A stretch of 28,661 bases of DNA from the IMG/VR virus record IMGVR_UViG_3300047380_000452, positions 1 through 28,661 of that record. One strand, 5' to 3'. Within the stretch, counting starts at the first letter, position 1. Each line of letters starts with the position of its first letter. Under the pieces are notes generated by a model. The model saw only the letters and a list, made by a program, of their open reading frames with translations. It did not search any database and was not told where the DNA came from. Both the position numbers and the translations under genes were made by a program. This document shows positions 1 to 26,656 of the stretch, one piece after another. The stretch is from a virus.

Positions 1-255
1 TATGCTATGCACATTGTTGCCAAATAACTGGCGAACCAATGCGTCACGCTCATCGTCACCGCTAAATGGTGTTGCTGACAAACCCCACCGGGCTGACTCA
101 CATTGATTGATCTTTGCGCTCCAACCTGGTGCGCCTGCTCTATGGCATTCGTCAACAATAAGCAGATTTGGCTTTGTTCCCATTGGCGCACCTGCTGCAC
201 AATATATACGCAGGTTAGCTTTTTGCTGTATTACTGGAAACCTGTCACAGGCCGT
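1..255. repeat. Terminal direct repeat, left copy (genome closure overlap)
   Basis: This segment recurs at 28407-28661 with two adjacent differences: GG at 128-129 here, TT at 28534-28535 in the other copy. The repeat lies inside the helicase reading frame, which stays open across the junction. The simplest reading is therefore an assembly overlap of a circular or circularly permuted genome of about 28,406 bp. A physical terminal repeat in virion DNA would rarely sit inside a gene but is not excluded. Confidence 0.95.
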
Positions 256-450
256 CTGCATCTGTTCAACCTGCTCTTTGGTGTTTACCATTATTTCAAT
301 GGCGGCCACACCTAGCCTTTTAGATAAGCAAACGGCAAGCGCAGATGCCGCTATGTGCGTTTTACCTGCGCCTGCCGGTGCTTGAACAATACCACGCTTA
401 GACTTAGCTAAAAAAGCTATTGCGTCTTGTTGGTATTGGCGATGTTGCAT
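1..450 (-). CDS. SF2 DNA helicase, N-terminal part (continues at 28406 after circularisation)
   Basis: This is the 5' part (150 codons) of a superfamily 2 helicase whose 3' part is at 27744-28661; joined, the protein is 370 residues. It should unwind or remodel DNA branches using ATP during replication or recombination, like UvsW- and RecG-type phage helicases. The Walker A motif is visible at residues 24-31 (APAGAGKT) and the DECH box at 100-103. The ATG at 448-450 is one base after the stop of the SSB-like gene, so the two are probably co-translated. No ORF finder would report this part, because it runs off the window edge without a stop. Residue 108 is Pro in this copy and Lys in the other. 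Confidence 0.9.
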   Translation of the reverse strand, partial: MQHRQYQQDAIAFLAKSKRGIVQAPAGAGKTHIAASALAVCLSKRLGVAAIEIMVNTKEQVEQMQTACDRFPVIQQKANLRIYCAAGAPMGTKPNLLIVDECHRAGAPGWSAKINQCESARWGLSATPFSGDDERDALVRQLFGNNVHSI

Positions 451-25438: not shown

Positions 25439-26656
25439 TTATATTAGTCTGTTTATTAATGTTACAAAGGCTTTAGCAGCAGTCTGTGGCACAACGCCAT
25501 TACCGCACGCTCTTAGTCTATCCACTCTGTTGGCAGTTGCGTCCACCCCACAGGCAGACCCATCAACTGTTCCACCCAATTTGGGTTTAACTTGCCTGTT
25601 GCTTTTCCGCAATGACCTGCAATCTCTTCCTCCAAGTTTGCTTTTTTCCGGTTGGCTAGTTCCTGCCTGTTCTTCTCCGTTATAGTTGGATGCACTTTGT
25701 TTGCTCTTGGTGTCGGCCACGACTCTTGGCTCTTCCCACTCTTGTTGAGTTTCTGTCGGTCTGGATGGCCAACAATTGATGGATGATTGCTTAGTGCCAC
25801 TTGGCCATAGTTTGGTTGGTTGCCAATCTTTGTTCCCTCTGCTGTTGTTGGTGTCGGCCAGTTTATTACTTCTTCCCTTAGGTTTTTGCAACCGCCCTTC
25901 TTTTTGGCTTTTGCTAGTTTCTCTGGTGTTCTGGCAGGCAAGGTGTCCATCGTGCTTGGCGTTGCCCATCTCGCTTCGTGTATTACTGCATCTCTCAATT
26001 TCGCTCCGTAGCTTGTGCCGTTTTCCCTTGTTGCTTTGAAGCCGCTTGGTGTCATCTCCACATTCTTCGCTATTCCACCCTCCACGCAACCTGCTACTGA
26101 TGGCGTTGGATACGCCAAGGATGTAGACTCTTTTGCGTTGGTGTGGTGCGCCAACTTCACACGCTGAGAATATTCCTGCCGTTGCTGTGTAACCCAATCC
26201 TTCCAATCTTCGCAACACATATTTGAGTACAGATTCTCCATCTGCTGTTTTGGCTGATATAATTCCTTCCACGTTTTCAAGGAAAACAAACTTGGGTTGG
26301 CACTCTCTGATTCCGTCTGCGATGTATGGAAACAAGTGTCTTGGATCTTCAGTTGCTTTACGCTTTCCGGCAGAGCTAAATGGCTGACATGGGAAGCCTC
26401 CAGATAAGATGTCCACGCATCCACGAAACTTTCTGTATGGGAAGGTTTTAAGGTTCGTGTAAATAGGTGTTGGATGTATTTTACCCTCTTCCATCTTCGC
26501 AACCAGGTTGGCGATGTTGAAGGCTTCGATCTCCACAAAAGCGCATTCTCTGACATTTGGCATAACTGATCTAAGTCCGATTCCAATGCCTTCGTATCCG
26601 CTGCATAGGCTGAGGTGTGTAATTGTTTTGGTAGTATCCACATTATTTGTCTCCAT
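25439..26656 (-). CDS. C5-cytosine DNA methyltransferase (Dcm family)
   Basis: This 405-residue protein shows the C5-methyltransferase motifs in order. Motif I is LSLCSGYEGIGIG (15-27), motif IV GGFPCQPFSSAG (86-97, nucleophile C90), motif VI ENVEG (127-131), motif VIII QRKRVYIL (173-180), then a variable recognition region, and motif X at the end (RACGNGVVPQTAAKAF, 382-397). It would methylate phage DNA, likely against host restriction; no cognate nuclease is present. The variable region is a K/S/N-rich stretch with ADT/SNA/GNA repeats, produced by dual coding with the +1-frame ORF at 25513-26643. The ATG overlaps the lysozyme gene by 14 bases. Confidence 0.88.
   Translation of the reverse strand: METNNVDTTKTITHLSLCSGYEGIGIGLRSVMPNVRECAFVEIEAFNIANLVAKMEEGKIHPTPIYTNLKTFPYRKFRGCVDILSGGFPCQPFSSAGKRKATEDPRHLFPYIADGIRECQPKFVFLENVEGIISAKTADGESVLKYVLRRLEGLGYTATAGIFSACEVGAPHQRKRVYILGVSNAISSRLRGGWNSEECGDDTKRLQSNKGKRHKLRSEIERCSNTRSEMGNAKHDGHLACQNTRETSKSQKEGRLQKPKGRSNKLADTNNSRGNKDWQPTKLWPSGTKQSSINCWPSRPTETQQEWEEPRVVADTKSKQSASNYNGEEQAGTSQPEKSKLGGRDCRSLRKSNRQVKPKLGGTVDGSACGVDATANRVDRLRACGNGVVPQTAAKAFVTLINRLI
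25513..26643 (-). CDS. Long +1-frame ORF nested in the methyltransferase gene (possible dual coding)
   Basis: This 376-codon ORF is on the same strand as the methyltransferase, shifted one base. Its ATG sits in TAATG directly at the lysozyme stop, a coupling junction used elsewhere in this genome. It carries four spaced W/Y-P/A-T-P motifs (178-181, 226-229, 262-265, 309-312) and ends with LNPNWVEQLMGLPVGWTQLP (352-371), a motif I associate with the C-terminus of phage proteins annotated as methyltransferase-like. A random 1.1-kb open frame is improbable. It could still be a shadow shaped by methyltransferase codons, so whether it is translated is undetermined. Confidence 0.45.
   Translation of the reverse strand: MWILPKQLHTSAYAADTKALESDLDQLCQMSENALLWRSKPSTSPTWLRRWKRVKYIQHLFTRTLKPSHTESFVDAWTSYLEASHVSHLALPESVKQLKIQDTCFHTSQTESESANPSLFSLKTWKELYQPKQQMENLYSNMCCEDWKDWVTQQRQEYSQRVKLAHHTNAKESTSLAYPTPSVAGCVEGGIAKNVEMTPSGFKATRENGTSYGAKLRDAVIHEARWATPSTMDTLPARTPEKLAKAKKKGGCKNLREEVINWPTPTTAEGTKIGNQPNYGQVALSNHPSIVGHPDRQKLNKSGKSQESWPTPRANKVHPTITEKNRQELANRKKANLEEEIAGHCGKATGKLNPNWVEQLMGLPVGWTQLPTEWID

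Follow-up and report, generated by a model that had tools for sequence, protein, structure and literature searches.

The window analysed here, the full 28,661-base virus record IMGVR_UViG_3300047380_000452, carries on its minus strand a pair of long nested reading frames, F1 and F2. We consider it quite likely that their products are the two subunits of one split C5-cytosine methyltransferase, because both frames are maintained, the constraint switches from one frame to the other, and the pair is homologous to a single-chain enzyme. It had been noted in the initial annotation of this DNA that two same-strand frames stay open together over 25513-26643; this proved correct, and the dual open frames are real and far beyond chance. 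The features concerned, in window coordinates, are the following.

25439-26656, minus strand: F1, 405 amino acids, the C5-cytosine methyltransferase chain with motifs I-VIII and X (PF00145 / TIGR00675)
25513-26643, minus strand: F2, 376 amino acids, +1 relative to F1, the proposed subunit with the variable region and motif IX (PHROG 1008, stop avoidance, periodicity)
26639-26654, minus strand: shared start region, with GGAG at 26651-26654 and the F2 ATG (26641-26643) overlapping the F1 GTG (26639-26641) as ATGTG
26120-26614, minus strand: F1 motifs I (LSLCSGYEGIG) to VIII (GAPHQRKRVYI), aligning with I-VIII of single-chain relatives
26149-26211, minus strand: F2 helix EDWKDWVTQQRQEYSQRVKLA, residues 144-164, with an AlphaFold2 predicted local distance difference test score (pLDDT) of 75-80 in an otherwise poor model
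25609-26121, minus strand: F2 variable region, with YPTP at 26112, WATP at 25968, WPTP at 25860 and WPTP at 25719
25534-25596, minus strand: F2 motif IX-like block GKLNPNWVEQLMGLPVGWTQL, with invariant columns, aligning just before the single-chain motif X
25466-25528, minus strand: F1 motif X, RVDRLRACGNGVVPQTAAKAF, matching PHROG 1008 positions 291-319

When the F1 codons of the window were permuted synonymously, the first half of F2 was open in 0 of 2000 trials (6.2 stops expected) and the second half in 0.15% of trials. A query of viral contigs with F2 yielded 203 related stretches, of which 80 were kept, and counts are given over 42 representatives, divergent relatives with an F1 first-half identity of at most 90%. 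Since these loci are related (mean pairwise F1 first-half identity 67%), the open-frame counts are not independent events. The first half of F2 was open in 41 of the 42 representatives and the second half in all 42, where 1.3 and 1.6 were expected; one stop and no stop were seen in the respective halves, as opposed to 124 and 128 under codon permutation. Conversely, the second half of F1 was open in 38/42 given the F2 codons (0.3 expected). The third frame showed no avoidance, with 510 stops in the second half among the representatives versus 508 expected. Querying the viral contigs with F1 returned 24 loci, F2 being present in all of them, and the 15 loci retrieved by F1 alone had F2 open in both halves (15/15; 0.7 and 2.1 expected). 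The initial annotation had named two outcomes that would speak against a second gene, and neither was found: stops do not freely interrupt F2 in homologues, and the codon bias of the methyltransferase alone does not account for it, a by-product of this kind being ruled out by the permutations together with the single-frame control described below.

The two halves of the overlap differ in the frame under constraint. Read by F1 codon position (1/2/3), the first half showed differences of 0.28/0.21/0.40; read by F2 codon position, the second half showed 0.37/0.33/0.56, and 2808 of 3321 locus pairs were closer in F2 than in F1 in this second half. Between the window and the relative L090, the differences by F2 position numbered 40, 42 and 94, and in close pairs the F1 third positions of the second half varied about as little as the second positions. 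A further permutation test, applied to 34 disjoint pairs, gave Stouffer z values of 6.6 and 6.1 for the first and second half, a test that covers loci already open in the first half of F2 and whose first-half signal is mostly stop avoidance. The first half thus evolves as the F1 protein and the half after motif VIII as the F2 protein; because of this F2 periodicity, F2 is the constrained protein after motif VIII.

By profile, F1 is a C5-cytosine methyltransferase (PF00145, expectation value (E) 1.8e-38; TIGR00675, E 9.1e-31), and it carries PCQ (IV), ENV (VI) and motif VIII, as such an enzyme should. Its matches to M.HhaI span residues 68-185 only, and past motif VIII no solved-structure match of F1 extended beyond residue 185 (217 for one weaker match). 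Likewise, the F1 profile aligned with the single-chain relatives over I-VIII only (E 2.9e-46). A motif IX was not recognisable in the F1 chain in the structure matches and the profile alignment; a motif IX-like block sits in F2.

C5 methyltransferases consist of a large domain, in which the majority of the motifs are found, and a small domain that bears the variable region together with motif IX (PMC3404938). The C-terminus of F2, GKLNPNWVEQLMGLPVGWT, was equated with motif IX, which F1 is without, and its block GKLNPNWVEQLMGLPVGWTQL contains 8 of the 12 columns that are invariant across 57 F2 proteins. The four [WY][PA]TP motifs (F2 residues 178, 226, 262 and 309) and LNPNWVEQLMGLPVGWTQLP close to the C-terminus are present as initially described. 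F2 matched PHROG 1008 ('DNA methyltransferase') with E 2.1e-18, a family that unites the F2 of phage K1ind2 (2-286), the F2 of the window (35-281) and the C-terminal parts of the PFR1 (155-322) and Estave1 (152-323) enzymes. The F2 profile also aligned with the block just before the single-chain motif X (E 4.3e-8, 31 columns). F2 had no match in Pfam or NCBIfam, and its profile had no relevant match in the PDB (best E 0.13). Of the two roles that had been suggested for the second protein, partner or modulator, that of partner is favoured, F2 having a motif IX-like block and a constrained variable region absent from F1; that of modulator is not.

The single-chain actinophage enzymes (Estave1, PFR1, L252-L276) have homologous motifs I-VIII, a PTP-containing variable region, IX and X, as F1 and F2 have together, but here every motif shares one frame, with the +1 frame closed. 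Most actinophage loci have IV, VIII, the PTP repeats, IX (EWMMG) and X in a single frame. A structure prediction for one of these enzymes (L265; predicted template-modelling score (pTM) 0.77) aligned with M.HhaI over its full length (Z 22.5, root-mean-square deviation 3.6, 255 residues). In the single-chain genes the two halves of the +1 frame contained 75 and 71 stops versus 63 and 78 expected, and because this frame is closed, the enzyme sequence does not of itself entail a second frame.

In the arrangement that we propose, F1 would give the catalytic chain with motifs I-VIII and X and a hydrophilic stretch in place of the target-recognition region. F2 would be translated from its own ATG, which overlaps the F1 GTG in ATGTG and would share one Shine-Dalgarno-like site with it, giving a second chain that bears motif IX and the variable region. 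From these two chains one enzyme would then be assembled, in which F2 provides target choice, much as in M.EcoHK31I, and which would likely serve to modify phage DNA against host restriction. F1 would have to stay open through the variable region because motif X must be reached, and F2 through its first half because the variable region and motif IX must be reached; this openness is seen in both frames. These sequence comparisons lend strong support to the earlier suggestion that a Dcm-type enzyme and a second protein are encoded by one DNA segment.

Natural two-polypeptide C5 enzymes, as well as fragments cut between motif VIII and the target-recognition domain (TRD), are active, and M.EcoHK31I has motifs I-VIII and X on its larger chain and IX on its smaller one (PMC3404938). 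M.AquI, a two-polypeptide C5 enzyme recognising CYCGRG, is split, like the window pair, between VIII and the C-terminal motifs (PMC3404938). Unlike in M.AquI, the window has motif X in F1, and its two genes overlap as a nested pair for 1.1 kb. Compared by motif layout, the nearest precedent is M.EcoHK31I (C5, YGGCCR), whose division of I-VIII plus X and IX over two chains is that of the window. The small chain of M.EcoHK31I is read from another frame inside the large-chain gene, M.EaeI being similar, and in the window the small chain is likewise found in another frame inside the large-chain gene. If this arrangement of M.EcoHK31I is right, a nested split methyltransferase is not a new principle. 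What appears new is how widely it occurs among phages, its extent of 376 codons from an overlapping ATGTG start, and a variable region that evolves as the F2 protein. The TRD of M.EcoHK31I has been assigned to the large chain, whereas the variable region of the window evolves in F2, and the M.EcoHK31I small chain is shorter than the 376-residue F2 with its overlapping ATGTG start.

As initially described, F2 starts at a TAATG (26643), in which the lysozyme stop TAA shares bases with the F2 ATG. The ATGTG was present in 31 of the 42 representatives, and its GTG was the sole nearby F1 start in 26 of them. The upstream F1 ATG at 26656 is without a Shine-Dalgarno-like site. The true F1 start is probably the GTG at 26641 within ATGTG, which would make F1 5 residues shorter.

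Three other explanations of the locus were weighed. The +1 frame could be a shadow, open merely through the F1 protein sequence and codon use. Part of the [WY][PA]TP coincidence is indeed forced, because F1 runs such as LADT, VADT, MGNA and VSNA yield these motifs in +1 from the same bases. However, synonymous permutation predicted about 250 F2 stops in the 42 loci where one was seen, F1 third positions in the second half of close pairs are about as static as second positions, single-frame relatives have the +1 frame closed, and F2 persists in an F1-broken clade in which F1 has 14-17 stops. A shadow is therefore very improbable for F2 as a whole and is already refuted for its second half. F2 might instead be an independent protein, such as an anti-restriction factor or a regulator, overprinted on a complete methyltransferase and acting outside the enzyme. 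Its own start, its openness over the full length and the lack of a Pfam or NCBIfam match would suit such a protein, but in its second half F2 shares homology with the C-terminal portion of the single-chain enzymes and F1 is without a recognisable motif IX, making this unlikely.

Equally doubtful is a frameshift fusion, in which ribosomes would translate motifs I-VIII from F1, slip +1 so that the variable region and IX come from F2, and return for X, giving one full-length enzyme. The single-chain actinophage enzymes show exactly that order in one frame, and the relatives with one frame broken that are described below (five in which F1 is interrupted after VIII, ahead of its C-terminal piece, with F2 open, and five with a stop in the first half of F2 and the second half retained) also speak for it. 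Two shifts would be required, however, and the junction codons of 23 loci, inspected by eye, showed neither a conserved heptamer nor a conserved codon pair for a +1 shift. Nor would a fusion need the open second half of F1 (38/42) or the open first half of F2 (41/42), and in two relatives (L028 and L035) the C-terminal F1 piece has its own AAAGGAGAAAAATCATG start. We disfavour the fusion since both frames are open throughout in most representatives and two shifts are needed.

Several observations also weigh against the split enzyme. Neither full-length chain is universal, as F1 is interrupted after motif VIII in five relatives and the first half of F2 has a stop in five relatives in which the second half persists. 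The alignment of F2 to motif IX is short (31 columns), and the first half of F2 may be without function beyond being translated. By a simple pattern search, 25 of the 42 representatives had no Shine-Dalgarno-like site. Finally, the AlphaFold2 model of F2 alone was poor (mean pLDDT 53.6, pTM 0.21), and no fold was assigned to F2 because this model was too poor for a fold search.

Some of these broken relatives fit two nested chains. In L028 (2980-3324) and L035 (3915-4244), a separate AAAGGAGAAAAATCATG start precedes the C-terminal F1 piece that bears motif X, which suggests an enzyme in three pieces. After the stop in the first half of F2, L030, L069 and L073 have an internal ATG near residue 148, which coincides with the best-predicted helix of that part of F2 (residues 144-164) and could be the start of a shorter F2 in some relatives. 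In L020, L050 and L054, 14-15 stops interrupt F1 between motif VIII and the piece with motif X; motif X is still in frame, and this piece is preceded by TTG or GTG starts only, without a clear Shine-Dalgarno site.

Well over a hundred different phages and prophages share this nesting. Two unrelated families, the N15/K1ind2 and Acidovorax types, were retrieved with the F2 proteins of Escherichia phage ST20 and Acidovorax phage Alfacinha3, an F2-biased sample of 135 loci in nearly all of which F1 and F2 were both open, in +1 register, with overlaps of commonly 200 to 500 codons. The methyltransferases of N15 (gp58), K1ind2 (ORF29 and ORF28) and Alfacinha share the nested +1 frame and a WLMG-type motif IX block with the window, although they are distant in sequence. 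Both families showed the periodicity of the window family (F1 in the first half, F2 in the second), most clearly in close pairs. In the N15 type, F2 was open in 49/49 loci in each half (8.0 and 9.8 expected); in the Acidovorax type, the second half was open in 13/13 and the first half was not decisive. We lean slightly towards nested dual frames being a general and old phage encoding of catalytic and specificity parts, with lineages switching between nested, three-piece and single-chain forms by small insertions or deletions (indels). If so, few long overlaps of genes on one strand would be as widespread in DNA phages as the nested C5 methyltransferase.

In annotation pipelines, only one of the two frames is usually retained and the other is lost. 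Both frames are annotated as methyltransferases in Escherichia phages K1ind2 and fTaEco01, and F1 alone in the N15 and BcepC6B records. In Acidovorax phages Alfacinha3 (L114) and Alfacinha1 (L126) the annotated 'cytosine-specific methyltransferase' is F2, and the frame with I-VIII and X is unannotated. Among the 13 records from a plasmid search with the N15-type F2, 12 bear the annotation DNA cytosine methyltransferase. No description of this phage overlap was found in a search of an open-licence literature library, 'Mte8-like' being an annotation label only. The entries for many phage 'DNA methyltransferases' probably lack the motif IX subunit or consist of nothing else, and such genes, cloned singly, would fail. 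With more than 1 kb shared on one strand and each half ruled by a different frame, the overlap also offers a clean natural system for studying the co-evolution of two proteins on one sequence.

Among the actinophage loci, seven (L262, L263, L266, L268, L275, L276 and L281) have the first PTP after motif VIII in the +1 frame and the later PTPs in the enzyme frame, a pattern reminiscent of an indel fusing a variable region that was once nested. In L111, L277, L278, L280 and L282, the early motifs are in one frame and IX/X in another. The first of these is Leperchaun (gp68/gp69), whose methyltransferase is annotated as two genes, with a natural frameshift, a split gene or a sequencing error as candidate causes.
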